Assembly: GCA_029261405.1 (NCBI GenBank)
Contig: JAJDBK010000079.1
Location: 1-64,000, forward strand
Direction: 5' to 3'
DNA: 64,000 nucleotides
Source of the DNA: Nitrospinaceae bacterium
Lineage (GTDB): Bacteria > Nitrospinota_A > UBA7883 > JAJDBK01
Positions 30,612 to 64,000 of the stretch are shown here, piece by piece (within the stretch, counting starts at the first letter, position 1; each line of letters starts with the position of its first letter). The notes below the pieces were generated by a model, which searched no databases, was not told the DNA's origin, and was given only the letters and a program-made list of their open reading frames with translations. Both the position numbers and the translations under genes were made by a program.

Positions 30612-31325
30612 TCAGAATTCTTTTCCGCCGTCTCCCTGGTAAGCATAGCGGAAGGTGTAACAAGCGGTGGCCGCGCCGCAATAGAAGTCGAGAATCTGAA
30701 ACTTCACATAAGCGCCTTTCGTTGTCCTGATTATGTAAATACGGTCAAGGGGGGTCAGCCTATGGGTCCAGAAGTCGTATCTGTACCATTTATCGAGTAT
30801 GGGACTGTACGGCTCCGCTTTGCTCCTGTCGTGGAGGTCCTCTTTTAGCTCCCCGCCGTCTGGAACTTGCAATAAAGAGTCGAATTTCACCGCATCAACC
30901 GCCATCACTCCGGTTTTACCCTTGCTGGCGCGGCCACTGTTGGTCACGATCTTCGCCCTCCTGAAGGCGATATCCCAGTCAAGGGAGTCGTAGTCGATAT
31001 CTTTTGCCGTGAACAGATCGCCTGTCGCGAAACGAAAATGAACCCACTCGGTCAGGGAGTTTGCGTCGAGAGCGTATTTAAACGGCCCCGCCACCTTTCC
31101 CGATATATCTTCGGGTGGTCTGTTCTTTATAACCGCCTCTTCGATATCTTTCTTCTCCCGCTCCTCGATTATCCGTTTCTGCTCATCGGAAAGCTCCGGG
31201 CGACCATCCATCTGCCAGACCATCAGTCCGAGAAAGGCGAGCAGGTTAAATCCCAGAAACAGCTTTATCCATCTGAGGGCTTTTTTCGATTCTTTTTCAC
31301 TATGGGGGTTGTTCTCTTCGTTCAT
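30612..31325 (-). CDS. HmuY-like haem-binding protein, membrane anchored
   Basis: A 237-aa protein with one N-terminal membrane segment (WIKLFLGFNLLAFLGLMVW), a charged linker (about 45-75) and a C-terminal domain resembling HmuY. The similarity is in the order WVHFRFATGD, WDIAFRRAKIVTNSGRASKG, IYIIRTTKGAYVKFQILDFY and TFRYAYQ. HmuY proteins bind haem outside the cell; the ligands cannot be fixed here. Unlike secreted HmuY lipoproteins it seems held by a membrane helix. It lies 4 bp after a cupredoxin-like gene and so is likely part of the respiratory region. The domain call is by motif memory. Confidence 0.55.
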   Translation of the reverse strand: MNEENNPHSEKESKKALRWIKLFLGFNLLAFLGLMVWQMDGRPELSDEQKRIIEEREKKDIEEAVIKNRPPEDISGKVAGPFKYALDANSLTEWVHFRFATGDLFTAKDIDYDSLDWDIAFRRAKIVTNSGRASKGKTGVMAVDAVKFDSLLQVPDGGELKEDLHDRSKAEPYSPILDKWYRYDFWTHRLTPLDRIYIIRTTKGAYVKFQILDFYCGAATACYTFRYAYQGDGGKEF

Positions 31326-31329
31326 GATC

Positions 31330-32070
31330 CTACTTTGTAAATTCGTGGTCGAACGATAACTCTTCGCCCGCTCCCACTTCGATTTTTTGGGTTGATTTTC
31401 CGAGCAGAGGACTCCAGACCGTCACCTCGTAGGCTCCGGGGGGAATTTTTTCGATAGAGTATGTTCCGTTGTCGCTGGTAATTGCGTAGTACGGGTTATT
31501 CAGGACCAGCGCATGCGCGTGCATGAAGTTATGGACATCACACTCCGCCTTGAAGACGTTGCCTTTGCGCAGTCTTATCTTCTTCTTCACCACCATGCCT
31601 TTAATCGGTTGCGCTTCGTTAAAAATGGTTTTGCGGTCATCGTTGTAGACTTCGTAAGCGTGGATGTTGTGCAGAACCGGATCCTGGTTTGTTACGGCAA
31701 GTTCGCTTTTATTCCGAATCACCTGTATCCACGGAACGAACCTGCATCCTTTCTGTTGCAATTCGGATGATTTTCCATTTTCTGACCACTCTTTGCCCGA
31801 CTCTATCTTTTCAATATAGACAACAGCGTTCTTCAGGCCACCCGCCTCGTCCACCTCTATCTTGCCGACCGCCCGATCCTCCGCTCCACAGATGTCGTGG
31901 CTCTTCATGACGGGGAGCGTCATCGGTTCTGGAGCGGTTCCGTTAAAAGTCACTCTTCCGCTCAATTTTCCTGCGCCTGTGACAGGGCCGACTTTGTACG
32001 CGTAACCTTCTACTGCGTAGAAAACGGATAATATGGTAAAAAGAGTTGGAACAGATCTAATAAAAAGCAT
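31330..32070 (-). CDS. Cupredoxin-like secreted protein, module 1
   Basis: A 246-aa exported protein (signal FIRSVPTLFTILSVFYAVEG). A cupredoxin-like domain supplies copper ligands in VLHNIHAY and AECDVHNFMHAH (C-x2-H-x2-M). It is followed by a carboxypeptidase-regulatory-like domain (SDNGTYSIEKIPPGAYEVTVW). Such proteins may carry electrons or hold copper in the periplasm. The ATG at 32070 has GGAGAG seven bases before it; a TTG at 32085 is less likely. It is divergent from the oxidase gene of module 1, while its homologue in module 2 (37010) reads with the oxidase. It is a likely partner of the complex. Confidence 0.72.
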   Translation of the reverse strand: MLFIRSVPTLFTILSVFYAVEGYAYKVGPVTGAGKLSGRVTFNGTAPEPMTLPVMKSHDICGAEDRAVGKIEVDEAGGLKNAVVYIEKIESGKEWSENGKSSELQQKGCRFVPWIQVIRNKSELAVTNQDPVLHNIHAYEVYNDDRKTIFNEAQPIKGMVVKKKIRLRKGNVFKAECDVHNFMHAHALVLNNPYYAITSDNGTYSIEKIPPGAYEVTVWSPLLGKSTQKIEVGAGEELSFDHEFTK

Positions 32071-32146
32071 AACAACGCTCTCCAAACGGAAAAGCAGGAC
32101 GATACAATACGCGCCTCTTGCGCGTCAACTTTTTAAAGGGGTTCTA

Positions 32147-33886
32147 TTGTTCAGGATCAAAACCTCAGGATTATACCCGACACTGCTTTGTGTCGCCCTC
32201 CTGATTGCATTTACCACGGAGGGTGGCGCTCTGGCTTCCTCTTTGCCGGAAACGCATGAAGGCGCCTATCGTTCCATATGGGGGATAAACAGCCGCATAG
32301 CAGTCTGGATGATCGCCCAGACCCACCTCTTTTTTGCCGCTTTTGTTCTAGGAGTTCCGATATTCTCATTTTGTATCGAGTTAGTCGGCATTATTACAAA
32401 AGACAAACGTTACGATGCGATGGCCCGGGAGTTTATCAGGATCAGCATGACGGCGTTTTCTTTTACCGCAACGTTCGGAGGTATTCTTCTTATCCTGCTC
32501 GTCACCCTCTATCCCGATTTCACGAGTTACTCGCTAAAAATCTTCGGGCCGGTGATGATCGTCTATGCGTTTTTGTTTATAGTCGAGAGTTTCGCCCTCT
32601 ATATATACCATTACGGGTGGAGCGCGATGTCGGACGGATATCTTAAATGGCTCCATCTTTTTACCGGATTGCTCTTGAACCTTACAGGAACCTCGATAAT
32701 GGTCCTGGCAAACTCGTGGGCCTCGTTCATGATGGCGCCTTCCGGTGTCGATCCTGAAACCGGGGAGTTTATGGGCAATCTGTGGGCGGTTATAAACGGA
32801 CCGTTATGGAACCCGCTCAACCTGCACCGCTTCGTAGCTAATATCGCCTACGGCGGGGCCATAGTCGGAGCTTACGCCGGATTTAAATTCCTGACCGCCA
32901 AAACCCGTGAAGGGAAAGCCCACTACGACTGGATGGGGCACACGGCGAACCTTATCGCCGTTATCGGTCTGCTACCTCTCCCTTTCGCGGGATACTGGCT
33001 GGCCAAGGAGATCTACGCCTACAGTCAGCAGATGGGGGTCACGCTGATGGGGGGTATCTTCGCATGGGTATTCATCATTCAGGCGGTGTTGATCGGGGCG
33101 ATTTTTCTGGGGGTGAACTACTACATCTGGGTCGGCCTGGGCAGAGTGTCGGGTGGAGAAAAATACCGGACCGCGATAAAGTTCATGGCCCTGCTTCTTG
33201 TGGCCTGTTTTCTTGTATGGTTCACCCCTCACACCATCGTCATGACAGGCGCAGAGCAGAAAACCCTCGGCGGAGCGCATCATCCGATCCTCGGATATTT
33301 CGGGGTGATGTCGGCGAAGAACAGCGCGGTCAACATCATGATACTGACTACGTTTCTCTCACTTCTCCTATACCAGCGGGTGGGTAAAAGAGCGACCGCA
33401 TCATGGGCTTTGCAGGGAAACGCAGTAATAACCGCCCTGTTCGTCGCTGGCGCCATCAATGTAATCGCCCTCGGAGTATACGGATATCTGGTTCCAGCCA
33501 ATGTGCGGATCGGCCTGTCTGTGCCACAGGTGGCCACCACACTTTTAGTTATCGTGATGGTGTCGGTCATTAACTACGGCATGTATAAGAACCCGGATAA
33601 GGGGCGGGCCGGTCCTGAATGGGGGAAGATGCCGGTCCGTTCCCAATACGCCCTGTTCCTGATCGCCATCTCCTTCACATGGCTGATGGGGTTGATGGGG
33701 TATGTGCGATCCGGGATAAGACAGCAGTGGCATATCTACACCATCATGAAAGACAATTCCGCTGATTCATTCACGCCGACCCTCGGTTATGCGGCAAAGA
33801 TAGTTTCGCTTAACACTCTTCTGTTCATGGCGATGATCGTCTTCATTTTCTGGCTCGACAACATGGGCAAGAAGAGGGCTTCATGA
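32147..33886 (+). CDS. CydA-like bd-type oxidase subunit, module 1
   Basis: A 579-aa integral membrane protein with about 13 hydrophobic helices, homologous to subunit I of cytochrome bd oxidases. AQTHLFFAAFVLGVP gives the histidine equal to His19 of E. coli CydA, and FIVES matches Glu107. Differences from CydA: Glu99 is replaced, the His186 position has Ala with a His four residues earlier (NLHRFVAN), and GRQPW of the quinol site is absent. Conserved with module 2 are VLANSWASFMM, AHYDWMGHTANL, PLPFAGYWLAKE and GYVRSGIRQQWHIY. No CydB or CydX gene is nearby. The TTG at 32147 with GGGG upstream and a following signal-like helix is the best start. It begins the module's operon. Confidence 0.85.
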   Translation: MFRIKTSGLYPTLLCVALLIAFTTEGGALASSLPETHEGAYRSIWGINSRIAVWMIAQTHLFFAAFVLGVPIFSFCIELVGIITKDKRYDAMAREFIRISMTAFSFTATFGGILLILLVTLYPDFTSYSLKIFGPVMIVYAFLFIVESFALYIYHYGWSAMSDGYLKWLHLFTGLLLNLTGTSIMVLANSWASFMMAPSGVDPETGEFMGNLWAVINGPLWNPLNLHRFVANIAYGGAIVGAYAGFKFLTAKTREGKAHYDWMGHTANLIAVIGLLPLPFAGYWLAKEIYAYSQQMGVTLMGGIFAWVFIIQAVLIGAIFLGVNYYIWVGLGRVSGGEKYRTAIKFMALLLVACFLVWFTPHTIVMTGAEQKTLGGAHHPILGYFGVMSAKNSAVNIMILTTFLSLLLYQRVGKRATASWALQGNAVITALFVAGAINVIALGVYGYLVPANVRIGLSVPQVATTLLVIVMVSVINYGMYKNPDKGRAGPEWGKMPVRSQYALFLIAISFTWLMGLMGYVRSGIRQQWHIYTIMKDNSADSFTPTLGYAAKIVSLNTLLFMAMIVFIFWLDNMGKKRAS

Positions 33887-34746
33887 AAACCCTCGCGCAG
33901 GTCATGCTTTTTAATATATCCATTATTTTCGCGTTCACCTGGTTTTCCGGCAGTATCCCCCAGATACGATCAGCGCCACAAAATTTCAGGCCGATATCGG
34001 GCAAAGGTATCTCACCTGAGTCTTACGCGGCCATCGGCGGAAGTATCTACAACGGTAAGGGAACGTGCAACCTTTGCCACGACCGGGTCGGACACAGGGC
34101 GCCGATACTTCTCTCATCGAGTGAAGACGGGCCACATATAGTGTTGAGGGCTGTTGATCGGGTAGCCGAGTCCGGGTACAAAGGTAGCGCGAAAAATGGT
34201 GTTGAATACCTTCGGGAATCGATGACCGACCCTTCCGCATATGTTGTCAAAGGTTTCGGCAAGGTCGGCTCCGACGAGGCCAAAAGCCCTATGCCAAGCG
34301 TCGTTTATGGGCCTATGAATCTTTCCCCTTTCGAGATCGAGGCGATAATAGCGTTTCTGCAAAATTCCGCCGGCATGACAGTGACCGCGAAACCGCCAGA
34401 GCGTAAAGATGAAACAGCAGTCAAACCTGTGGATACAGGCGTGGTAGCGGACATTGACTCGATATTTCGCAAATACGGTTGCACTCTTTGCCATACCGAT
34501 CCTGTCACCGAAGGGAATGAGGATGTAGCCGATACGGGTCCGTCGTTAACCGCTCTGCCGGAAAAGTATATAAACGGCGCTCCCGGCGGTCTCTCGTTGC
34601 AGGAGTATATTCGTCAGTCTGTCATTGCCCCTGAGACCTATATCGTAAAAGGGTATGAAAAGGGTGTAATGCCGGATGATTTCGCCGACCGAATGCGGGT
34701 GTCGGAGCTTGAAATGATCGTCAATAAACTTGGCGGAACACAATGA
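33883..34746 (+). CDS. Dihaem cytochrome c, module 1
   Basis: A 287-aa periplasmic protein anchored by an N-terminal helix (VMLFNISIIFAFTWFSG). Two CxxCH sites, CNLCH at residue 62 and CTLCH at 200, bind haem c in two similar halves joined by a Lys/Pro/Glu-rich linker. Distal Met candidates lie in KSPMPSV and KGVMPDDF. Its ATGA start overlaps the oxidase stop and the next gene overlaps its own stop. It probably feeds electrons to the CydA-like subunit. The homologue in module 2 is 39792-40835. Confidence 0.9.
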   Translation: MKTLAQVMLFNISIIFAFTWFSGSIPQIRSAPQNFRPISGKGISPESYAAIGGSIYNGKGTCNLCHDRVGHRAPILLSSSEDGPHIVLRAVDRVAESGYKGSAKNGVEYLRESMTDPSAYVVKGFGKVGSDEAKSPMPSVVYGPMNLSPFEIEAIIAFLQNSAGMTVTAKPPERKDETAVKPVDTGVVADIDSIFRKYGCTLCHTDPVTEGNEDVADTGPSLTALPEKYINGAPGGLSLQEYIRQSVIAPETYIVKGYEKGVMPDDFADRMRVSELEMIVNKLGGTQ

Positions 34747-35510
34747 AGATTCCTGGCCTCATCAAATCAGTTGTAATCATCTGGGCGGCCTGGTACGGCA
34801 TTGTGTACCTGTTTACAGACCTTCTCGGAGCCCCCATCCCGGCAAGTGTGATGAAGATGTATATGTTCTTCATTATTATCGGAGTCTTCATGGCGTTCAC
34901 AGCCGATGAAGAGACGGCTGAGGAGATATTTGGTCCGTTCAGGAGACTTTTATTCGACAGGTCGCACCGGGTTCTCAGGAGTATCGTCTTTATAGTAATA
35001 CCGCCTCTGGTTTTCATGGTTACATACGAGATCACAAGACCGACTCTCGATGCGCCCGTAGAACTGCGGGCCGTACACCCGGCGCCCCCCTCATCCTTTA
35101 TGGCTTTCGGCAAAAGTTTTAACATGTTGACCCTCGAAAATCCGTACAGAAGCCTTGAGCGGGGAAAACCCGATAAATTCCGGGAGGCGGTGAACGAAGG
35201 GCGAACGGTCTATTACACAAACTGTTTCTTCTGTCATGGTGACAAGCTCGAAGGAAAAGGCCATTTCGTTAAAGGGTTCAACAACCCGGCGCCAGCCAAT
35301 TTCCGGGAGGTAGGCGCCATCGGTCAGTTACAAGAGTCGTTTCTCTTCTGGAGAATAGCCGTCGGCGGACCGGGCCTGCCAAACGAAGGGGCGCCGTGGG
35401 CATCCCCGATGCCTGTCTGGAAAGATTTCCTGACCGAAGATCAGATATGGAAAGTGATTCTGTTCCTCTACGATTACACCGGACACAGACCGAGGACATT
35501 TGGTAAATGA
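34743..35510 (+). CDS. Membrane-anchored monohaem cytochrome c, module 1
   Basis: A 255-aa protein with three N-terminal membrane segments (about 5-25, 35-55, 77-97). A periplasmic cytochrome c domain then has CFFCH at residue 161, in NCFFCHGDKLEGKGHF. The distal Met is probably in ASPMPVWKDFLTEDQIW. It overlaps genes on both sides by 4 bp. Three helices plus one haem c recalls the membrane cytochrome c partners of some quinol and bd-like systems. Homologue in module 2: 40825-41781. Confidence 0.88.
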   Translation: MKIPGLIKSVVIIWAAWYGIVYLFTDLLGAPIPASVMKMYMFFIIIGVFMAFTADEETAEEIFGPFRRLLFDRSHRVLRSIVFIVIPPLVFMVTYEITRPTLDAPVELRAVHPAPPSSFMAFGKSFNMLTLENPYRSLERGKPDKFREAVNEGRTVYYTNCFFCHGDKLEGKGHFVKGFNNPAPANFREVGAIGQLQESFLFWRIAVGGPGLPNEGAPWASPMPVWKDFLTEDQIWKVILFLYDYTGHRPRTFGK

Positions 35511-36994
35511 TAATTCTGGCGCTCCTGTTCATCACATTCGGCCTGTTTCAACCAGAGTTTTCTTACGCCAACGAACCTGTCGGCAAGGAAATATACGACC
35601 GGCTATGCCTCGGTTGTCATGGCATGACAGGAAAAGGGGATGGCCCCGCCGCTTCTGTCCTGCGCCCGAAACCTCGAAACTTCAGGCTTGCCCGATACAA
35701 ATACACACAAACACAATATGGCAAACTTCCGCTGGACTCCGATATATACAAGGCGATAGCCGAGGGGTTACACGGCACAGCCATGCCGGGATGGAGTGAC
35801 ACTCTGAATCATGGGGAGATAGAAAGCCTGGTCGATTACATAAAGAGCTTCTCGAAAAAATTTGCCAAAGCGAAGGCAAAAGGGAGAGAACCTGCGCCGA
35901 TCCCCATCGGAACTCCTCCCCTCTTCAGTGTCAAGGTAATCGAAAAAGGACGAAAACTCTACAACGTCTACTGCAAAAAATGTCACGGCGGTACAGGTCG
36001 TGGCTCCGGCTCTTCGGCTGTGTCGTTAACCCACGACCTCGGCGACCGCATCTGGCCGCGAAACCTTACCGAAGGTTGGCTCTACCGTGGCGGCAACAGG
36101 TCGGAGGATATATTTCGCACAGTGGCCACAGGTATATCGGGAACCCCGATGCCGTCCCATGTCTCTTTTAACCCTGAAGACAAGAGCGCCCTGACTCTTA
36201 AAGACGCTTGGAACGTTACAGCGTTTGTCGATTCAATCATAACCAGAGAAGAGCCGAAGACAAGCGAGGTTCTCGTAGTGAAATTTACAAACGGTGTCGT
36301 CCCGAAAGATCCGACAGACCCGAAATGGAACATTATTTCACCCGGATATTTCCCATTGGCAGGACAGATCATCGAAGGTGAACGTTGGTTCAAAACAACG
36401 CTAAAGTCCGTTTACGCCAGAGCGTTTTATAATGAGAAGCGGATAGCGATTCTTCTGGAGTGGGACGATCCTACCGACAGCCCCCTTGAAAAAACACCGG
36501 AGAACTTCCCGCAAAACGAGCCGGACGCTATTGCAATCCAGTTTCCCGTAAAAATCCCGGAAGGAATGGAGAAACCGTATTTCCTCGGCGGAAGCGCTTC
36601 TCGCCCCGTAACAGTATGGAAGTGGTCCAGCGAATCAGAAGCGAAAATCCTCACCGGGAAAGGTATCCTGAGGAGTGAAAAAACCGATGGCATTATTTCG
36701 GTTAACCACGTTTATCATGAAGGCCGTCATAAGGCGCTCTTTTCAAGATCGCTTGGAGGTGACACACAAAACGGGATAACCTTTGTCCGGGACAGGTATA
36801 TACCAGTGGCATTCAACGGGTGGGACGGTAATAACGGTGAAAAAAACGAACAAAGAGCCGTAAGTGTATGGTACTGGCTGTTGCTTGAAGAACCGACAGG
36901 GGGAGCGTCGGTCTATTATATTCCAGCGCTGGCGGGGTTTGTCATGATCTTCTTTGAGTTATTGATTATCATAAAGACCAGAAATATCGGATAA
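35507..36994 (+). CDS. Dihaem cytochrome c fused to EB-dehydrogenase-like haem domain, module 1
   Basis: A 495-aa exported protein with three parts. Two cytochrome c domains carry CLGCH at residue 34 and CKKCH at 156. Residues of about 285-465 resemble the haem-binding gamma subunit of ethylbenzene dehydrogenase and nitrite oxidoreductase-type enzymes (EGERWFKTTLKSVYARAFYN, AIAIQFPVKI, WYWLLLEEP). A C-terminal membrane helix (YIPALAGFVMIFFELLIII) anchors it. The third domain would bind haem b. It ends the module-1 operon and overlaps the previous gene by 4 bp. It could be the entry point for electrons from a periplasmic donor. Homologue: 41778-43325. Confidence 0.85.
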   Translation: MIILALLFITFGLFQPEFSYANEPVGKEIYDRLCLGCHGMTGKGDGPAASVLRPKPRNFRLARYKYTQTQYGKLPLDSDIYKAIAEGLHGTAMPGWSDTLNHGEIESLVDYIKSFSKKFAKAKAKGREPAPIPIGTPPLFSVKVIEKGRKLYNVYCKKCHGGTGRGSGSSAVSLTHDLGDRIWPRNLTEGWLYRGGNRSEDIFRTVATGISGTPMPSHVSFNPEDKSALTLKDAWNVTAFVDSIITREEPKTSEVLVVKFTNGVVPKDPTDPKWNIISPGYFPLAGQIIEGERWFKTTLKSVYARAFYNEKRIAILLEWDDPTDSPLEKTPENFPQNEPDAIAIQFPVKIPEGMEKPYFLGGSASRPVTVWKWSSESEAKILTGKGILRSEKTDGIISVNHVYHEGRHKALFSRSLGGDTQNGITFVRDRYIPVAFNGWDGNNGEKNEQRAVSVWYWLLLEEPTGGASVYYIPALAGFVMIFFELLIIIKTRNIG

Positions 36995-37009
36995 AGGATG
37001 TATTCATAT

Positions 37010-37681
37010 ATGAGAACCAAACTGCTCATCGCTGTATCACTGACGTTTGTTCCTGTCTTCGCCTTCGCAAACGGAACGGTCACAGGCAAGATCAAAACTT
37101 CGGCAAACCATTCAAGCGTTTCGGTCGTCGTAACGAAAGATACGGCTGTATGCGGTGAGAGCGTTATAAGCGAGAAATTAATCGTGAATGAGTCAGGTGG
37201 CCTGAAAAACGCCGTAGTCATGATCGAAGGGGTGGGCGTGGCTAAACCTGGCGCGGTTTCCATCAATCAGGAGAAGTGCCGGTTTAATCCGCACGTTCTC
37301 GTTGTGGCGCCTGGAACTGAAGTTGCCGTAAACAATATGGACGAGACCACCCATAACTTCCACACATACGCGTTCGAGAACGAACCGGTCAACTTCAGTC
37401 AACCCGCAAGCCTGAAAACAAAAAAAGTAACAGGTGAAAATTTTGAGGAACCGGAAGTTGTGGAGGTGAAGTGTGACATACACGAGTGGATGAACGCCTG
37501 GATAGTTGTAAGCGAAACTTCGGCGGTGGCTGTGACCGGAGCGGACGGTTCGTTTACCATTAATGATATCCCACCCGGCTCGCACAAAATAAGGGTCTGG
37601 CACGAATTTCTAGGCGAAGTGGTAAAAGAGATCATCGTGAAAGATGGCATAACCACCTTCGATCTCACCTTGGGCGAATAA
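37010..37681 (+). CDS. Cupredoxin-like secreted protein, module 2
   Basis: A 223-aa exported protein (signal LLIAVSLTFVPVFAFANG). The copper-type ligands are in TTHNFHTYAF and EVKCDIHEWMNAW (C-x2-H-x2-M). A carboxypeptidase-regulatory-like domain follows (GADGSFTINDIPPGSHKIRVW). The ATG at 37010 has AGGA eight bases upstream; the ATG at 36998 has no spacing. It lies between module-1 and module-2 genes and reads with module 2. It is homologous to the divergent 31330-32070 protein, supporting membership in the same system. Confidence 0.72.
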   Translation: MRTKLLIAVSLTFVPVFAFANGTVTGKIKTSANHSSVSVVVTKDTAVCGESVISEKLIVNESGGLKNAVVMIEGVGVAKPGAVSINQEKCRFNPHVLVVAPGTEVAVNNMDETTHNFHTYAFENEPVNFSQPASLKTKKVTGENFEEPEVVEVKCDIHEWMNAWIVVSETSAVAVTGADGSFTINDIPPGSHKIRVWHEFLGEVVKEIIVKDGITTFDLTLGE

Positions 37682-37692
37682 GCCGACAGACC

Positions 37693-39786
37693 ATGAACCG
37701 GACCGGCCAGATTCTGGCTACCGCAATTTTTCTCTCCACTATCACTGCGGGGGTGGCGTTTAGCGCCGATGGAGACTACCAGACTTATATGGGGTTCTCC
37801 TCCCGGAATATCATATGGTTCGTCGCCCAGACACACCTCTATTTCGGCGCGTTCGTGCTGGGTGTGCCAATATTCGCCGTGATAATGGAATACGCCGGGT
37901 ACAGGAGAGGAGTTTTACAACTCGACGATCTGGCCTACGAGTTCACGGGCCTGCTGTCGGTCGCGTTCGCCTTCACATCCGCACTCGGCGGGCTGTTCCT
38001 GTTCGCTCTTGTTTACCTCTACCCGACATTCTTTTCATATATGCAAGGCGCCTTTACGGAGACCATGCTCCTCTACGCGCTCCTCTTTTTCGGCGAAACC
38101 TTTACGCTATATATCTACTACTACGGATGGCGCCGTTTTAGCTCCACAACCAAATGGCCCACATGGTCAAAATATTCGGGATACGCCATCGGAGGGGTTT
38201 TTGCCGTCACAGCCCTGTTATTCTTTCTTGGGGTGATAGGCGATCAACCATACCTGACGGGAGAGGTGAGGGCGTTCGTGGCGGCTCTATTGCTGTTGGC
38301 GGGAGGAAGTTTTCTACTGCTGACAAATAACAAGGGGATGCACATCTGGTTCGGCGTATGGCTCAACATTTTCGGAACACTCATCATGATGGTGGCAAAC
38401 TCGTGGGCCTCATACATGATGAGCCCCACAGGGTTTAATCCTGATACCGGCGTTTTTACAGGCTCTGTCATGGAGGCTTTTTTCAATCCACTCCTTGTGC
38501 CGCTGGGCGTTCATCGTATTCTCGGCAATATCGCGTTCGGTGGGTTTCTGGCGGGCGCGTATGCCGCAGTCAGGTTTATCGGCGCCGAAACTGACAAGGA
38601 ACGCGCCCACTACGACTGGATGGGTTATACCGCAAACCTCGTTGGGGTGGCCGGTCTTATACCGTTGCCTTTCGCCGGATATTATCTGGGGCGCGAGGTC
38701 TATTCGCACAGCGCAGTCATGGGCGCAAACATGATGGGGGGTGACTTCTCATTTACTTTCATACTGCAGGCTCTGCTCGTCGGATCGATCTTTCTGATCG
38801 CATGTTATTACCTGTGGACAGGCATGACGCGCATTCCGGGGGCCGAGCGGTATCGGGGTTGGGTAAAGTATCTCAATTCGTTTATTCTCATCGGATTCGC
38901 CATCTGGGTGACACCGCACAACATGCCCCTTGGCGGTGCGGAGGTAAGCGCCATGGGCGGCTCCCAATACCATCCAACGTTAAAATATCTGGGACTGATG
39001 CCAGCTAAAAACGCCGTGGTCAACCTGATTATCATATCAACATTCATAAGTTTCCTGCTCTACAGACGGGCCAACATGAAAGGCGTATCGTCCATTGTTA
39101 AACAGGGCGCCACGGCCCGGTTCGGCATTTTGCTCGCAACTCTGTTTTCGTTTCTGATAGTAGGCCAATACGCAATATACCTCCTTGCCCTCGATCCGCA
39201 GGAGCTAAACCTGACATCCGGCAAGGTTACTTATATTTTGCCCGTGGCGTGGCTTTTGCTGGCTACATGTGTAATGTTCGCAGTCACAGCATACCTATCC
39301 CTTATAGATAAAGGTAACCTGGGGCAATACCTGCTTATGGGATGGATCATAATAAGTGTCGTGGTTTTTCCCGGATACTTCGGGTTCATCGTTATGGAGA
39401 AGGCAAACCCGTTCTTGCGTAACATCGCTGTCGCCCAGTTCCTGCAACTTATCGGCGCTATCATTTTGGTATCTGTTATCGATCTGTTTTTATATGCGAA
39501 ATCAGAATCGACCGGATCGATCAGGTGGGGACGAATACCACTACGATCACAATACGCCCTGCTGACCTTATGTATCCTTGTCACACTCACTATGGGGCTT
39601 ATGGGTTATGTGCGGTCAGGATTAAGGACCGACTGGCATATCTACGGTGTTATGCGAGATATATCGGTTGACTCCGCGACCCCCACGAACTTTGACATGA
39701 CCCTCATGGTTTCAGTGACCACGCTGGTTTTTCTTTTCGCCATCGCCATAATTTTCTGGCTCTCCTCCATAGCGAAAAAAGGATAG
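37693..39786 (+). CDS. CydA-like bd-type oxidase subunit, module 2
   Basis: A 697-aa membrane protein, larger than its module-1 homologue by one or two extra helices after residue 160 and in the C-terminal third. A signal-like start (ATAIFLSTITAGVAFSA) precedes AQTHLYFGAFVLGVP with the His19 equivalent. FGETF matches Glu107; Glu99 is lost; the His186 position is Gly with a His four residues earlier (GVHRILGN). GRQPW is absent. AHYDWMGYTANL, PLPFAGYYLGRE and GYVRSGLRTDWHIY are shared with module 1. The late histidines in TPHN and YHPTLKY are conserved between copies and may be haem or metal ligands. No CydB is nearby. Confidence 0.85.
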   Translation: MNRTGQILATAIFLSTITAGVAFSADGDYQTYMGFSSRNIIWFVAQTHLYFGAFVLGVPIFAVIMEYAGYRRGVLQLDDLAYEFTGLLSVAFAFTSALGGLFLFALVYLYPTFFSYMQGAFTETMLLYALLFFGETFTLYIYYYGWRRFSSTTKWPTWSKYSGYAIGGVFAVTALLFFLGVIGDQPYLTGEVRAFVAALLLLAGGSFLLLTNNKGMHIWFGVWLNIFGTLIMMVANSWASYMMSPTGFNPDTGVFTGSVMEAFFNPLLVPLGVHRILGNIAFGGFLAGAYAAVRFIGAETDKERAHYDWMGYTANLVGVAGLIPLPFAGYYLGREVYSHSAVMGANMMGGDFSFTFILQALLVGSIFLIACYYLWTGMTRIPGAERYRGWVKYLNSFILIGFAIWVTPHNMPLGGAEVSAMGGSQYHPTLKYLGLMPAKNAVVNLIIISTFISFLLYRRANMKGVSSIVKQGATARFGILLATLFSFLIVGQYAIYLLALDPQELNLTSGKVTYILPVAWLLLATCVMFAVTAYLSLIDKGNLGQYLLMGWIIISVVVFPGYFGFIVMEKANPFLRNIAVAQFLQLIGAIILVSVIDLFLYAKSESTGSIRWGRIPLRSQYALLTLCILVTLTMGLMGYVRSGLRTDWHIYGVMRDISVDSATPTNFDMTLMVSVTTLVFLFAIAIIFWLSSIAKKG

Positions 39787-39791
39787 GGGAT

Positions 39792-40835
39792 ATGGTCAAG
39801 GCTCTGCTGAAAGTTTCCCTTTACCTCATAACCGTTCTCTCCTTGTTTATCTACGCAGGTTACGCCGTCACCGATATGACCGGAGGATTTGATCGAAAGG
39901 TTATCGTCGAGGGCGTTAACGCAAAAGCTGGTGAGCGTATTTTTTTTGGTAAAGGGAAATGCTCCACATGCCACTCTATCGGCGCCAAAGGAAGCGCCAT
40001 TAGATGTCCCAATCTTGGCATACAGGGCGAGAGTTTCACACAACCCATTGGAGAGAGAATCAAACAGCGGGCGGTGACCCGGTCCGAGCAGACCGGAAAA
40101 AAGTGGAAACCGGTCGATTACCTTTTTGAAGCTTTGTTCGATCCCGGCGCTTACATCGTGGAGGGTTACAAGAACGAGATGCCGATAGTCTATAAACCAC
40201 CCATATCGCTGTCGGCGGACGAAATCAAAGCGGTAATAATCTATCTGACCTCCATTGGTGGCGATATTGCATCCGACGAGATCGTGAACCCATCCGGTAT
40301 CGCCGGGGATATTATCGCGAACGTCGAATCGAACACTGATGAGGATACCAGCAAGCCGCTCCAGATTTATATAAATGGAGATGCGAAAAAGGGCAAAGAA
40401 CTTTTCTGGAACGTTAATGGCAACGCAGGTTGTGCGAAATGTCACTCCGTAGGTCAAATCGGAGGCAAGGTCGGTCCACCCTTGACCGATGTCGCAAGCG
40501 TTCGTGACCTGAAATTTATTATCGAGTCGATAGTCGCACCTTCGGCCTCCATAGCAAACGGTTATCAGTCGATCCTGATTCTCACAAAAACCGGAGAACG
40601 TATAACCGGAACCGTAAAGGCCGATACGGCTGAAAGCATTATTCTACGAACACCGGCAGGCGAAAGTCTTGTCATAGAAAAACAGGGGATAAAAAGATCA
40701 AAGCTCCTGAAAAAATCTATGATGCCGGATAACTTTGCCGAGATTCTGTCCGTAAAAGAGTTTTACGACATTCTGGCTTACGTTCAGACTTTGACAGATA
40801 ACACTCCTTCAAAAGGAGGCAAGTATGAAGAGTAA
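39792..40835 (+). CDS. Dihaem cytochrome c, module 2
   Basis: A 347-aa protein anchored or secreted through an N-terminal helix (ALLKVSLYLITVLSLFIYAG). Haem sites are CSTCH at residue 57 and CAKCH at 214. The second half resembles a haem-domain of the Pirellula-type c-family (GKELFWNVNGNAGCAKCH, SIANGYQSILILTKTGERITG). The segment SMMPDNFAEILS near the end holds a probable distal Met. It starts 5 bp after the oxidase gene and overlaps the next by 11 bp. It is the homologue of 33883-34746, with a longer second domain. Confidence 0.9.
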   Translation: MVKALLKVSLYLITVLSLFIYAGYAVTDMTGGFDRKVIVEGVNAKAGERIFFGKGKCSTCHSIGAKGSAIRCPNLGIQGESFTQPIGERIKQRAVTRSEQTGKKWKPVDYLFEALFDPGAYIVEGYKNEMPIVYKPPISLSADEIKAVIIYLTSIGGDIASDEIVNPSGIAGDIIANVESNTDEDTSKPLQIYINGDAKKGKELFWNVNGNAGCAKCHSVGQIGGKVGPPLTDVASVRDLKFIIESIVAPSASIANGYQSILILTKTGERITGTVKADTAESIILRTPAGESLVIEKQGIKRSKLLKKSMMPDNFAEILSVKEFYDILAYVQTLTDNTPSKGGKYEE

Positions 40836-41781
40836 GAAGACAGGGGGAGGCCAGTTCTGGTGGACAACAATAACTATCGGAATCGTACTGGCCCTGATCA
40901 AATATGGCATCCCGTGGTTATCACGATGGATAACAGGGTCCGACCTGCCGCTACCCGTGCCGGGAACTCTTTTTTTCTTCTACACAATCATCATTCTCGC
41001 CGGAACATTCGTATATATAAGCTCCGACGAAACGACCATTGTCAGTTTCCTCGCTCCCATAAAATCGGTCTTCAGGGGTGATTACGGAAAGTTATTCTTT
41101 TTTGTCGTAATGGCTGTTACACCTGTCGTTGCAGGTTATTTTGTCTTTGCGTGGGTAAAACCCGCTGTCGTCGCATCGGTGACATTAAGAATCCAGCACC
41201 CGTCATCGAACTTCCCAAAAAAGTATGAAGCCCTGAAAAATCCAATGAGGGAGCCGACAGACGCCCAGATCGACGAATTCATCGAACAGGCGAATAACAA
41301 CAGTGTCGAGTATTTCCCACAGGTCCACGATGAGGGTAAACAGTTTACCAACATACGCCATCTCCCTTTCGGGCCGGTGACAAAATTCCTCGCAAAACTC
41401 CATAGTGGAACTACGGACAGAGGGCTTGCACAGCTCGCGTTAATGGAAAAAAGGCTCTTTGAAGGACGCGCCCTCTACCAGATCAATTGCAGACCGTGCC
41501 ACGGAGTTTCAGGTGGCGGAGACGGGCCGATGGCTTACGGTTTTTCGTTACGCCCCATTAACTTTACCGACAGCGGGACCATAGATACGTTGGTCGAAGG
41601 TTATACATTCTGGCGCATAGAAAACGGAGGACCTTCTCTTCCACCCGAATCGACCCCCTGGGATTCGGCTATGCCAGTATGGAAACATGACCTTACCGAA
41701 ATTGAACGATGGACAATCATGTTGGCTGAATACGATATTGCCGGTGTTTCACCCCGTGAACCTGAGAAGGTAGCGAGGTGA
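40825..41781 (+). CDS. Membrane-anchored monohaem cytochrome c, module 2
   Basis: A 318-aa protein with three N-terminal membrane segments (about 12-32, 47-67, 85-107) and a periplasmic cytochrome c domain with CRPCH at residue 222. Between them is a 70-residue insert rich in charged and aromatic residues that the module-1 copy lacks. The distal Met is likely in DSAMPVWKHDLTEIERW. A GGAGG lies just before the ATG. Gene order matches module 1 exactly. Confidence 0.88.
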   Translation: MKSKKTGGGQFWWTTITIGIVLALIKYGIPWLSRWITGSDLPLPVPGTLFFFYTIIILAGTFVYISSDETTIVSFLAPIKSVFRGDYGKLFFFVVMAVTPVVAGYFVFAWVKPAVVASVTLRIQHPSSNFPKKYEALKNPMREPTDAQIDEFIEQANNNSVEYFPQVHDEGKQFTNIRHLPFGPVTKFLAKLHSGTTDRGLAQLALMEKRLFEGRALYQINCRPCHGVSGGGDGPMAYGFSLRPINFTDSGTIDTLVEGYTFWRIENGGPSLPPESTPWDSAMPVWKHDLTEIERWTIMLAEYDIAGVSPREPEKVAR

Positions 41782-43325
41782 GAATATTCATCGCTTCGAT
41801 TCTGGTTCTGGTTATCACATCGGTTATGGCGGTGGCGGGTAATACAAAACATGTAAAGACCGAAGAGCTACTTGAACTCGGCAAAAAAATCTACATACGG
41901 AACTGCTCGTTCTGCCACGGAATAAATGGAGGCGGAGATGGGCCGGTGGCAAAGTTTCTCAATCCTCGTCCACGAAATTTCAGATCAAACGTATTCAAGT
42001 TTCGCACTACAACCTCCGGCTCTCTACCCACCGATGAGGATCTTTTCAAAACCATCTCGCGCGGGATTCCCGGCACGGCCATGCAGTCGTTTGATTCCGC
42101 CACAAACAGACGGGGACTCACGGAAAATCAACGATGGGCGGTCATCTATCATATCCAGACCATGAGCGACGACCCCGATTATAACCTCTGGGTTTTCGAC
42201 GATGAATACGCCGCAAGTGACGATCCCGACGATAGAGCCGACTACCGTTACAACAAGGTTGTTGACATCAAATCGCCACCACCTTCGACCCGTGAGACCA
42301 TCACCAAAGGGAAAGAGGTTTATAAAAAAGCGCAATGCCACACCTGCCACGGAGTCGCTGGCAGAGGAAACGGCCCTTCAGCCTCAAAATTGAAAGACGA
42401 ATGGAAACTTCCTATCCTTCCGCGCGATCTGACTAAAGGATGGAGATACAAAGGTGGTAACGAAGTCGCCGATATATTCACCCGGTTCACCACAGGAATG
42501 AATGGAACGCCGATGCCATCCTACTCAAGTTCTATAGGTGAAGAAGATCGTTTTGCCCTGGCTCACTACGTCAAAAGTTTGCAGGAAAGCGTTACAAAAA
42601 AAAGAGTTCTTACAGCTTTGAGAGTTTCAGAAAAACTGCCAACCGATCCAGCCGACCTATTATGGAGTGGAGTCGAAGGTATCGATATCAGGTTGACTGG
42701 TAACGTCATTACAAAACCGCGCTGGCAGAATATCACCATCGACCTTGTGCGGATAAAGGCTGTTTTCACCGACGATGAGATTGCGTTCAGGCTGGAATGG
42801 AATGATCGTTTCCAAAACAGGGAGGATACTATGGCGCTCCAGTTTCCTGTCAAACAATCGGCAGGAGAAGAGAAACCGCATTTCCTTAACGGCGACGAAA
42901 ATCATCCGGTCAACCTCTGGATATGGAGAGCCGATAAGGACCTGGTTGCAGAACTCAACGCCACCGGTTATAAAAACCCCTTCATTACACAACAAGTAGA
43001 GTCGCAGAATGTAACAGGGGACGCGTCATTCATTGATGGTGTCTGGAGTGTCGTAATGAAACGCTCCCTCGTAACTGATGACAGAAACGATACGCAATTT
43101 AATACAGGTGGTTTTATACCGCTTGCACTGAATGGATGGGACGGCGCGAACGGCGATACGGGTACGATGAAATCGATTTCGTCATGGTACCTGCTTCGCC
43201 TGGAAAAACCGGCGCCACTCAAAGCATTCGGTATAGCCGCCTTGGCGGTATTGCTGGTGATTGCGCTGGAAGTTTATCTGACCCGCAGATGGCGAAGAGA
43301 CGTTACGATTCAAGATCGGGCGTAA
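41778..43325 (+). CDS. Dihaem cytochrome c fused to EB-dehydrogenase-like haem domain, module 2
   Basis: A 515-aa exported protein starting with a GTG that overlaps the previous stop. Haem c sites are CSFCH at residue 43 and CHTCH at 187. The EB_dh-like haem domain follows (about 300-485; ITIDLVRIKAVFTDDEIAF, MALQFPVKQS, SSWYLLRLEKP). A C-terminal helix (AFGIAALAVLLVIALEVYL) anchors it. Homologue of 35507-36994. It is the last gene of the module, and its end overlaps the convergent putA end by 23 bp. Confidence 0.85.
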   Translation: MRIFIASILVLVITSVMAVAGNTKHVKTEELLELGKKIYIRNCSFCHGINGGGDGPVAKFLNPRPRNFRSNVFKFRTTTSGSLPTDEDLFKTISRGIPGTAMQSFDSATNRRGLTENQRWAVIYHIQTMSDDPDYNLWVFDDEYAASDDPDDRADYRYNKVVDIKSPPPSTRETITKGKEVYKKAQCHTCHGVAGRGNGPSASKLKDEWKLPILPRDLTKGWRYKGGNEVADIFTRFTTGMNGTPMPSYSSSIGEEDRFALAHYVKSLQESVTKKRVLTALRVSEKLPTDPADLLWSGVEGIDIRLTGNVITKPRWQNITIDLVRIKAVFTDDEIAFRLEWNDRFQNREDTMALQFPVKQSAGEEKPHFLNGDENHPVNLWIWRADKDLVAELNATGYKNPFITQQVESQNVTGDASFIDGVWSVVMKRSLVTDDRNDTQFNTGGFIPLALNGWDGANGDTGTMKSISSWYLLRLEKPAPLKAFGIAALAVLLVIALEVYLTRRWRRDVTIQDRA

Positions 43326-46263
43326 AACCGTGCCTGAGCGTGTTCTCCGAAACGGTTTGTGGTATCGAAAGCTCCCGCAGAAAATCGGCGGAACCGGCCT
43401 TGGCGTTTCCCAGACCGGAAGCCTTGAATCCCCCAAACGGTTGACGCCTTACCACCGCGCCTGTTATTCCACGGTTAACGTAAAGATTACCAGCGGCTAA
43501 CCTCTCAACAATCTTCTTAATAGTTGAAGGTGTTCTCGAATAGACACCACCCGTCAGGCCGAAACGCACATTGTTGGCAATATCTATCGCCTCGTTTATA
43601 TTCGTCGCCCGGATCACGGAGAGGACCGGTCCGAAAATTTCATCCTGCGCCAAGGGCGAATCGGGGGGCGCGTCACTAAAAACCGTGGGCGGAACAAAAT
43701 ATCCATCGACCGGGATTTTCGCGTAACCTGTCACTCGTGTCGCCTCTTTATCTCCCATCTCAACGTACCGTTTTATCCGCCTGACGGCTGTCTCCTCCAC
43801 CAGCGGGCCAAAGTTCGTTGAAGAATCGAACTGCGATCCGACAATCAGACTCTCAACTGCGTCTTTGAGTCTTTCGATAAACCTGTCGTAAACAGTTTCA
43901 TGAACAATCACGCGCGAGCAGGCGGAACATTTTTGGCCACCGAACCCGAATGCCGAAGCGACTACACCTGCCACCGCCTCATCCAGGTCGGCCGATTCGT
44001 CCACGATAATAGCGTTTTTTCCCCCCATCTCCGCAACGACCTTCATGAATCTTCCTCTACCCTTGAACAACGTACCGCTCTTTTTGACCAAGGACGCGCC
44101 CACATCAAACGAACCTGTGAAAGAGACAAAAGTTGTCTGCGGACTCTCGACCAATACAGGTCCGATAAGGGAACCGGGACCGGGAACAAAATTCACAACG
44201 CCGTCCGGTATACCCGCTGTGGAGAGGATATCTACAAACACGGACGCTGTAACGGCGGAGAGGGATGACGGTTTTATCACCACTGTGTTACCAGCGGCCA
44301 GGGCCGAGGCGGTCTGTCCTGCCAATATGGCTAACGGAAAGTTCCAGGGCGAGATGATTATCCCGGGGCCTCTCGGGATGAAACCCGCAATGTTAGACTC
44401 TCCAAGAATGTCGTCGGTCCGCGATTTCCCAAGAATCTCCAATGCGGATACGGCGTAATAATTTACAAGGTCGATCGCTTCGTCTACATCGGCCAACGCC
44501 TCCGCCCCTGTTTTGCCCACTTCAAACATCTGTAGCGCGGCCAGCTCATGTTTCCGGTCACGAATGACTCCAGCGGCTTTCATAAGGGGTTCCACCCGTT
44601 CGGTAACCGGAACCTTGCGCCACGATGTAAAAGCCATCGCCGACTCGGAAACAGCAAAACCCGCCATCTCTTCTGTGGCCTCCCCTACCCTGCCGACAAC
44701 TCGTGAAGGCGTTGACGGATCGCACGATTCAAAAGAGGTCTCCGTATCGACCTTTACGCCATCTATGACCGGCGAATATTCTCCACCAAGGGTTTCGCCG
44801 ACCATACGAATCGCCGACTCCATAAGACGCCGCTCATCAGGTTCATGAAACTTAGGCGCCGGTTCATTAAAGAATATCTGTTTTTTCCCATCCTCGAACA
44901 GGCAGACGGAAGGCTCTGGCGCCTCTTCGTTTTTCCCATTAATCAGTTTTGCCGGTTTGGCCATCAGCTCCTCTTCAGAGCGATCCTCCACAAACGATCT
45001 TCGCAAAAAAGATTCGTTGGAAGAGTTCTCCAAAACCCGTCTGACGAGGTACGCCATGCCGGGCGCCAGTTCCCCCAACGGCGCGTAGACTCGCACGGGG
45101 ACACCCATATTGATGAGCGCCCTTTTTATTTCGTCACCCATGCCGTGTAGCGCCTGTATCTCGAATTTCTCCGGATCGGCGCCGAGTTTTCGTGAGAGGG
45201 CTATGGCGGTGGAAATGGAGCGAACGTTGTGGGATGCGATGGCGGTTACGATGCCGTCATGCTGTAAAAGTTTTGCAATCATCCGCTCAAACGCCATGTC
45301 GGTGGCAACTTTCGACATCAGCACAGGTGGCGCCCATCTTTTCTGGCTTGCTGTAACAACCTCCTTCTCCCAATAAGCCCCCTTAACCAAACGAATAGTT
45401 ACACGCCGCCCGGTAGAATCAATTCGGGCAAGAAGGTTTTCAAGAGAACTCTCGGCATCGGTCAGATACGCCTGAACCACTATTCCTGCGCCATCGTAAC
45501 CATCAAACTCCGGTTCGGATATAAGGTCCAAAAATATCGAGAGCGTCAGATCGCGAACTTCGTAGTTCTCCATATCGACGGTAAGATTCGCGTCGGTCTG
45601 TTTTGCCGCAACCATTATCCGTCTTAACCTCGTGGTAACGTCGAGAACCGCCCGATCATAATAGAGTGGGGAAAACCGGCTCGACAATGCGGATAGCTTT
45701 ACGGAGATGTTTACCGCTGGTTCGACAGAAGCGCTTCTTGCCGCCATGTAGTTAATAAGATCAACGTATCGCTGGGTAAAAAGCTCCGCGTCTTTCTCTG
45801 AAAGCGTCGCTTCACCGAGCAGATCGAGGGTATATGTAAAACCCTCCCCGCAAAGAGTCGATAAAACACTCGCCGCCGATTCCATGTTTTCTCCGACGAT
45901 AAATCCACGGGCGATTTTGTCGATCACCATGCCAGCGGCTATACCTGCGGTTCCAGGAGTTATCAGAGCCGAGCGCAACGCCCTTCGATGTAACTTTAGT
46001 TCGTCGGGCAACCTGTCGTCGGCGGAGGGCAAATATTCCCTTAAGTGCCGAGCCACCGCCCTGCCAGACTTTAACGATGGAAACACGTCGATAAACCGCA
46101 AGACACCGGTCTTCATCTCACTGTCGCCCGACATCCACTTGATAGCCTGACGCTCCCACCAGGGCAACTCCCAGAAGGAGGGTTCACTGCTCTTCGCCTC
46201 CTGCAATATTTGCGAACCGATGGAGCGGATGGAGTTTTCGAGAGACTCGTCGAATATGGTCAC
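43303..46263 (-). CDS. putA: Bifunctional proline dehydrogenase / P5C dehydrogenase
   Basis: A 986-aa flavoenzyme that oxidises proline to glutamate. The proline dehydrogenase barrel is N-terminal (about 90-430; ALHGMGDEIKRALI, VRVYAPLGELAPGMAYLVRRVLENSSNE in sequence). The aldehyde dehydrogenase half (about 500-960) includes SPWNFPLAI, FTGSFDVGASL, VAEMGGKNAI and FGGQKCSACSRVI with the catalytic Cys. There is no N-terminal DNA-binding domain, so it does not repress its own gene. A GTG with GGAG five bases upstream starts 8 bp after the sucrose synthase stop. It is probably in the same transcript, an odd pairing. Confidence 0.96.
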   Translation of the reverse strand: MTIFDESLENSIRSIGSQILQEAKSSEPSFWELPWWERQAIKWMSGDSEMKTGVLRFIDVFPSLKSGRAVARHLREYLPSADDRLPDELKLHRRALRSALITPGTAGIAAGMVIDKIARGFIVGENMESAASVLSTLCGEGFTYTLDLLGEATLSEKDAELFTQRYVDLINYMAARSASVEPAVNISVKLSALSSRFSPLYYDRAVLDVTTRLRRIMVAAKQTDANLTVDMENYEVRDLTLSIFLDLISEPEFDGYDGAGIVVQAYLTDAESSLENLLARIDSTGRRVTIRLVKGAYWEKEVVTASQKRWAPPVLMSKVATDMAFERMIAKLLQHDGIVTAIASHNVRSISTAIALSRKLGADPEKFEIQALHGMGDEIKRALINMGVPVRVYAPLGELAPGMAYLVRRVLENSSNESFLRRSFVEDRSEEELMAKPAKLINGKNEEAPEPSVCLFEDGKKQIFFNEPAPKFHEPDERRLMESAIRMVGETLGGEYSPVIDGVKVDTETSFESCDPSTPSRVVGRVGEATEEMAGFAVSESAMAFTSWRKVPVTERVEPLMKAAGVIRDRKHELAALQMFEVGKTGAEALADVDEAIDLVNYYAVSALEILGKSRTDDILGESNIAGFIPRGPGIIISPWNFPLAILAGQTASALAAGNTVVIKPSSLSAVTASVFVDILSTAGIPDGVVNFVPGPGSLIGPVLVESPQTTFVSFTGSFDVGASLVKKSGTLFKGRGRFMKVVAEMGGKNAIIVDESADLDEAVAGVVASAFGFGGQKCSACSRVIVHETVYDRFIERLKDAVESLIVGSQFDSSTNFGPLVEETAVRRIKRYVEMGDKEATRVTGYAKIPVDGYFVPPTVFSDAPPDSPLAQDEIFGPVLSVIRATNINEAIDIANNVRFGLTGGVYSRTPSTIKKIVERLAAGNLYVNRGITGAVVRRQPFGGFKASGLGNAKAGSADFLRELSIPQTVSENTLRHGFTPDLES

Positions 46264-63804: not shown

Positions 63805-64000
63805 TTAATCTCCCGCTTGTTCCGCCAGCTCCAGCGCGAATTGCGCCTTTGGGCTGTTGGGGTTTTTGAGTTGAGGTGGTTTTGTTATCGAGCCGTAAAG
63901 AGTGGTCCACGGTTCCGCCGCCGAACCGTAGCCGGGGTGCATGGCGATTGTCACCGGTGTTGATTGACCGACCGGGCGCAGGTTACGGAAGATCGTCCAG
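63805..64000 (-). CDS. Phage structural protein, partial
   Basis: The last 64 residues of a gene cut by the window edge. It ends QFALELAEQAGD before TAA, one base before the fibre ATG. No family can be told from this part. Position before a fibre gene suggests a baseplate or tail protein. Confidence 0.6.
   Translation of the reverse strand, partial: WTIFRNLRPVGQSTPVTIAMHPGYGSAAEPWTTLYGSITKPPQLKNPNSPKAQFALELAEQAGD

Follow-up and report, generated by a model that had tools for sequence, protein, structure and literature searches.

A two-module operon for a possible paired cytochrome bd-like complex of the OR-N kind in a Nitrospinota genome

Bd-like proteins of the OR-N type are regarded as the probable terminal oxidases of Nitrospira and of numerous Nitrospinota, although to our knowledge nobody has yet demonstrated their subunit composition, electron donor, or activity. 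The window analysed here, a stretch of 64,000 nucleotides from a Nitrospinota contig of 139,894 bases (genome of 3.27 Mb, 99.5% complete), carries a double set of genes for CydA-like proteins and their haem c and copper partners, and raises the question of what the two sets build and which acceptor they serve. It appears, with a probability of about one half, that they encode a paired cytochrome bd-like complex of the OR-N (CydAA′) kind that most likely reduces O2. The conserved two-module operon would thus supply a concrete subunit list for such a system.

Organization of the operon

Positions 31330–43325 comprise cupredoxin, CydA-like, dihaem cytochrome c, membrane monohaem cytochrome c, and dihaem c–EB_dh fusion genes, each present twice (Table 1). 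All ten ORFs were recovered, in the same order in both modules and with the Pfam domains that a preliminary description of this DNA had claimed. That description had also called the module-1 cupredoxin divergent; the gene indeed lies on the opposite strand, is transcribed away from the operon, and encodes a protein with all copper ligands. The nine plus-strand genes (32033–43325) follow one another with gaps of −4, −4, −4, +3, +11, +5, −11, and −4 bp and look like one transcription unit, i.e., a tightly coupled operon, among whose genes the ORF list and Pfam reveal no CydB. As called, the ORF of cupredoxin 1 overlaps the first-called ORF of CydA-1; the likely real starts are given in Table 1.

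Table 1. Genes of the two-module block and its HmuY-like neighbour (window coordinates)
Position	Strand	Feature	Evidence
30612..31325	-	HmuY-like periplasmic protein, N-terminal membrane helix	Pfam HmuY, E=1.8e-16
31330..32070	-	Cupredoxin 1, divergent subtype, CDVHNFM loop, C-terminal CarboxypepD_reg-like domain; called ORF reaches 32085 from TTG, ATG at about 32070 likelier	
32033..33886	+	CydA-like, clade M1; called ORF from 32033, start probably at about 32147	PF01654, E=9e-22; trees; 11 hydrophobic peaks in a simple scan
33883..34746	+	Dihaem cytochrome c, N-terminal anchor, module 1	2 CXXCH, 1 membrane helix
34743..35510	+	Monohaem cytochrome c, three membrane helices, module 1	Cytochrom_C, E=5e-7; 1 CXXCH
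35507..36994	+	Dihaem c–EB_dh fusion, C-terminal helix, module 1; axial Met replaced by Gly	
36998..37681	+	Cupredoxin 2, CDIHEWM loop	
37693..39786	+	CydA-like, clade M2, about 14 helices, some of them without counterpart in M1	PF01654, E=1.8e-10
39792..40835	+	Dihaem cytochrome c, N-terminal anchor, module 2	Cytochrom_C, E=2e-13; 2 CXXCH
40825..41781	+	Monohaem cytochrome c, membrane helices, module 2	Pfam; CXXCH count
41778..43325	+	Dihaem c–EB_dh fusion, C-terminal helix, module 2; axial Met replaced by Asn	

The two copies are clearly diverged, as had been noted, with identities between modules of 25–37% (CydA, 37%; dihaem c, 25%; monohaem c, 28%; EB_dh fusion, 33%; cupredoxin, 32%). These values, together with the two deep CydA clades described below, rule out a recent local tandem duplication. 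The arrangement recurs in other Nitrospinota genomes: it is entire in one (G005), present with some genes masked by overlapping ORF calls in a second (G009), and retained for the most part on a short contig of a third (G021). Chance is excluded for a block that is found complete and in unchanged gene order in further Nitrospinota. Conserved clustering, on which the preliminary description had made its reading depend, was examined and is strong.

In Nitrospinota loci, the HmuY-like gene regularly accompanies the block, and it holds the same position in two sister loci (L031 and L032); a role of its product in haem handling would fit. On the other side of the block, 43303–46263 was judged by eye to encode a proline dehydrogenase/aldehyde dehydrogenase fusion, and the adjoining 46272–48662, also by eye, resembles a sucrose synthase/glycosyltransferase gene. 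A long run of short minus-strand genes at 64000–83900 of the same contig, more than 20 kb beyond the operon, looks prophage-like by eye.

The CydA-like core and its haem c and copper partners

Both CydA-like proteins match Cyt_bd_oxida_I (PF01654) above cut-off, and all significant PDB matches of the AlphaFold model of the M2 protein (pLDDT 85.4) are CydA chains of bd oxidases. By CydA sequence and fold, they belong to the cytochrome bd oxygen reductase superfamily. WD40 matches of CydA-2 were dismissed as repeat artefacts of the signal peptide region.

At the positions of E. coli His19 (haem d) and Glu107, the same residues are kept almost without exception in clades M1 and M2, and likewise in the anammox proteins. 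The invariant His of an HRxxxN motif aligns with the mycobacterial counterpart of His186, while the multiple alignment pairs His186 with another invariant His; tentatively, a His186 equivalent is probably kept in both clades. Five further His residues are invariant in a seven-sequence set. Anammox bacteria are strict anaerobes, and because their M2-type members share these residues, the conserved His and Glu cannot alone prove O2 reduction.

In the C-terminal half (the Met393 and Glu445 region), sequence alignments are unreliable for ligand placement. Within this weak alignment, neither clade has a conserved Glu at the position aligned with Glu445, the haem b595 ligand of E. coli, and in both M1 and M2 the canonical Q-loop is absent and its region replaced. 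The proteins therefore do not qualify as canonical quinol oxidases (qOR) by Q-loop and Glu445, as far as that weak alignment goes. It was also reported that the quinol-site residues of canonical CydA are missing in the bd-like family (PMC3578206). The earlier choice of a periplasmic rather than a quinol donor is judged right. Overall, the likeness to canonical CydAB comprises the N-terminal half of CydA with the His19, Glu107, and probably His186 equivalents, whereas CydB, the Q-loop, and a conserved Glu445 are lacking and many haem c partners are present.

With regard to these partners, the anchored dihaem protein and the EB_dh fusion of each module have two CXXCH motifs apiece and the membrane monohaem protein has one, so that five haems c are predicted per module, as the preliminary description had counted. 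Among related proteins, these numbers are kept in 90/93 dihaem proteins, 95/96 monohaem proteins, and 92/95 EB_dh fusions. Both cupredoxins retain the type-1 copper ligands His, Cys, His, and Met, a set found in all 66 relatives, and share a C-x2-H-x2-M spacing that we take to be that of amicyanin. The AlphaFold model of cupredoxin 1 (pLDDT 91.6) matches amicyanin, plastocyanin, and the NirK cupredoxin in the PDB. By ligand set and fold, these are type-1 copper proteins.

The EB_dh domain is matched by Pfam in both fusions (E=3.8e-9 in module 1 and 8e-17 in module 2), and one haem b had been expected from it in each module. This expectation was not borne out. The ethylbenzene dehydrogenase gamma subunit and NxrC structures (2ivf_C and 7b04_C) define a Met, preceding a conserved Gly, that is presumably the haem b ligand of ethylbenzene dehydrogenase. 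Since both EB_dh domains of the window are without this axial Met (Table 1), their binding of haem b is doubtful, judging from these alignments. The Met is retained in most of the anammox M2-type and most of the Pseudomonadota M1-type proteins sampled; Arg takes its place in 34 M2-type proteins, most of them from Pseudomonadota, and His does so in a third module of the source genome and its relatives in the class. This third module, a single M1-like one on contig C1 (L030:2398-12761), stands ahead of genes for cytochrome c and cytochrome b (PF00033), an arrangement conserved through much of the class.

Two CydA clades and their pairing across phyla

Trees of 69 and 74 CydA-like proteins split M1 from M2, with SH-aLRT support of 96 for the M1 clade in the former and 100 for both clades in the latter. 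Each clade contains Nitrospinota, Pseudomonadota, Nitrospirota, Gemmatimonadota, and SAR324. Because the named relatives are only the best 80 of at least 572 matches, this set is biased toward relatives of M2. An M1-type CydA or module occurs in 21/21 Pseudomonadota loci with at least 9 kb of downstream sequence, and the order dihaem c, monohaem c, and EB_dh after the M2 CydA holds in 24/27 Pseudomonadota and 15/15 Planctomycetota loci with room for it. Pairwise distances of the M1 and M2 CydA proteins correlate (r=0.97, 28 pairs), a value that still includes shared species history. No M2 type was found among the plasmids of the collection searched. As far as trees and gene neighbourhoods indicate, the M1–M2 pairing is ancient and spread over many phyla.

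One operon and two ancient CydA clades standing side by side across phyla favour one paired complex, and it is probable that the M1 and M2 modules assemble in this way. The preliminary description had each module build a membrane complex of its own; such separate complexes are the less likely arrangement. Two independent complexes, one per module, co-expressed but separate in function, would account for the complete accessory set in each module and for the existence of lone modules, such as the M2-type ones of anammox bacteria and the M1-like one on contig C1. However, the two clades are kept adjacent in several phyla and here lie in one operon, and most genomes that lack an M1 next to M2 encode one at another site, which makes such independence quite unlikely.

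The distribution of M1 also bears on the acceptor. Among 26 genomes with M2 and no adjacent M1, most of them draft MAGs, an M1-clade protein is encoded elsewhere in 10/13 non-anammox genomes but in only 2/13 anammox genomes (Fisher p=0.005, with genomes treated as independent despite kinship). It is thus absent from 11 of the 13 anammox genomes in this largely draft set, and the two exceptions are Scalindua genomes with a haem-c-fused form. The three non-anammox genomes in which M1 was not found are draft MAGs of Poribacteria, the marine Nitrospinota ARS89, and KSB1. Which half reduces O2 thereby becomes testable.

The balance of evidence inclines towards O2 as acceptor. O2 reduction is likely but unproven, because the M2-type half and its haem ligands are also present in anammox bacteria, which are strict anaerobes. 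An O2-reducing paired complex is further opposed by the lack of a conserved Glu445, by the three MAGs with M2 and no M1, and by an aa3/caa3-type oxidase that the source genome also encodes. A non-oxidase function has in fact been proposed for NXR-linked copies in Nitrospina and Nitrospira (PMC3578206, PMC6606698), namely reverse electron transport, in which the proton motive force would drive high-potential electrons to the quinone pool for CO2 fixation. It would suit anammox bacteria, in which reducing O2 would be pointless and whose single M2-type modules adjoin NxrB/NxrC genes; of the nine loci with an NxrB-like gene close to M2, most are from these bacteria. On the other hand, the reported absence of the quinol-binding residues of canonical CydA (PMC3578206) speaks against such a path, and M1 goes with non-anammox genomes instead of accompanying M2 wherever it occurs, so that reverse transport is unlikely here.

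Related systems and possible electron donors

The operon belongs to an already known kind of system, because its gene set has been described beside NXR and its CydA type corresponds to OR-N. The earlier suggestion that it may be poorly described needs changing, in that the system is not an undescribed one; the kinship proposed with bd-like proteins of nitrite oxidisers is correct. Nitrospina gracilis, Nitrospira defluvii, and Kuenenia have the same gene set next to their NXR genes (PMC3578206), all Nitrospira have a duplicated bd-like gene downstream (PMC3578206, PMC6606698), and in N. moscoviensis, whose cluster has bd-like_3/bd-like_4 with alt_NxrC_2, bd-like_3 is duplicated downstream and strongly expressed (PMC6606698). 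The NXR-linked cluster and the window share a bd-like oxidase, mono- and dihaem cytochromes c, cupredoxins, and an alternative NxrC, i.e., an EB_dh protein with two haem c motifs and a membrane helix. What sets the window apart is a host without nitrite oxidoreductase, an operon that contains two complete modules, and EB_dh domains that have lost the axial Met.

According to PMC10839748, Nitrospinota CydA proteins fall in OR-N1 and OR-N2, which are proposed to pair and to take electrons from cytochrome c; PMC10839748 and PMC12342949 present this pairing and cytochrome c oxidation as hypotheses. The window, from the same phylum, has two distinct CydA-like subunits together without CydB, lacks the canonical Q-loop, and putatively oxidises cytochrome c. 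Its CydA type is thus most likely that of the OR-N family of the cytochrome bd superfamily, as described in papers that cite Murali et al. 2021.

We infer the direction of electron flow and the identity of the donor as follows. High-potential electrons from a periplasmic oxidation would pass to a cupredoxin or a soluble cytochrome c, the two type-1 copper proteins being candidate soluble donors, and then through the five haems c of each module to the CydA-like core. Two different subunits, M1 and M2, would together form this core, each served by a separate set of dihaem c, membrane monohaem c, and dihaem c–EB_dh proteins; in this two-CydA form, O2 would most likely be reduced with cytoplasmic protons. 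In hosts other than this one, nitrite oxidoreductase or an Aio/Idr-type molybdoenzyme would act upstream.

In the source genome, a MopB search found only four proteins (NuoG-like, formate-dehydrogenase-like, PhsA-like, and QrcB-like), none of which fits a nitrite oxidoreductase, and NXR was rejected as partner. AioA was not found there either, which removed an Aio/Idr partner, present in two sister genomes, from consideration. As the source genome is without both enzymes, the donor is probably fed by another route, such as sulfur oxidation. The source branch was described as sulfur oxidising, and the non-Nitrospinia classes as lacking nitrite oxidation (PMC10839748).

An AioA-like protein is encoded near the block in 22/34 Pseudomonadota loci, where AioB, a HEAT-repeat protein, and a pair of dihaem peroxidases usually accompany it; AioA, AioB, and two peroxidases make up the iodate reductase idrABP1P2 (PMC8692401). 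In the sister genomes G005 and G009, the Aio/Idr set lies directly beyond the HmuY-like gene, in the order block-HmuY-P1-P2-AioB-AioA. The source genome has the block and the HmuY-like gene without AioA, and its EB_dh axial Met is lost, as might be seen in a decaying remnant of an Aio/Idr-type respiratory island that had lost its molybdoenzyme. However, the ORFs are all intact and the haem c and copper ligands are retained. Because the sister genomes that still have AioA also lack the EB_dh Met, its loss is not a sign of decay, and a remnant is highly improbable.

The Aio/Idr-type link suggests that the same machine serves several oxidations besides that of nitrite. A broader role for the M1–M2 block, speculative and rather unlikely as a whole, would be that of a general-purpose receptor for high-potential periplasmic oxidations in many phyla, i.e., a bd-type oxidase with ten haems c fed by cytochrome c or cupredoxin. 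In this view, the M2 half would be the older one, functioning in anammox bacteria without O2, and the ability to reduce O2 would come with M1; the block would serve the Aio/Idr-type enzyme of marine Pseudomonadota and Nitrospinota, possibly in the oxidising direction.

Parts known from nitrite oxidisers and anammox bacteria are thus found here without nitrite oxidase. New in this analysis are the absence of M1 from most of the anammox genomes, the position of the block beside Aio/Idr-type operons, including those of sister Nitrospinota, and a source organism with neither enzyme. The open literature searched yielded no description of the breadth of the two-module pairing, the anammox/non-anammox split of M1, the Aio/Idr linkage, or the EB_dh Met loss, and no Idr paper found there mentions cytochrome bd.

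Aio/Idr-type sets, consisting of two CCP_MauG peroxidases, a Rieske AioB, an AioA-like MopB protein, and often a HEAT-repeat protein, were located at L080:1068-9040, L109:2494-7996, L143:1585-9402, and L144:2336-10054. Hosts of such sets adjoining M2/M1 blocks are Pseudomonadota, SAR324, and two Nitrospinota genomes. No bd-like genes surround an Idr-like set on an Azonexus plasmid.

A bd-like protein is also part of TO_1 and TO_2 of ‘Ca. Manganitrophaceae’ (PMC9040806). TO_1 has a periplasmic cytochrome b and a proposed periplasmic electron intake, whereas TO_2 has MrpD-like ion-pumping subunits that the window block lacks (PMC9040806). TO_2 was called restricted to Ca. Manganitrophaceae (PMC9040806). 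A locus in another genome of the same order (L038:475-8722, G010) resembles it, with a bd-like–cytochrome c fusion, two MrpD-like proteins (PF00361), and a trihaem EB_dh protein.
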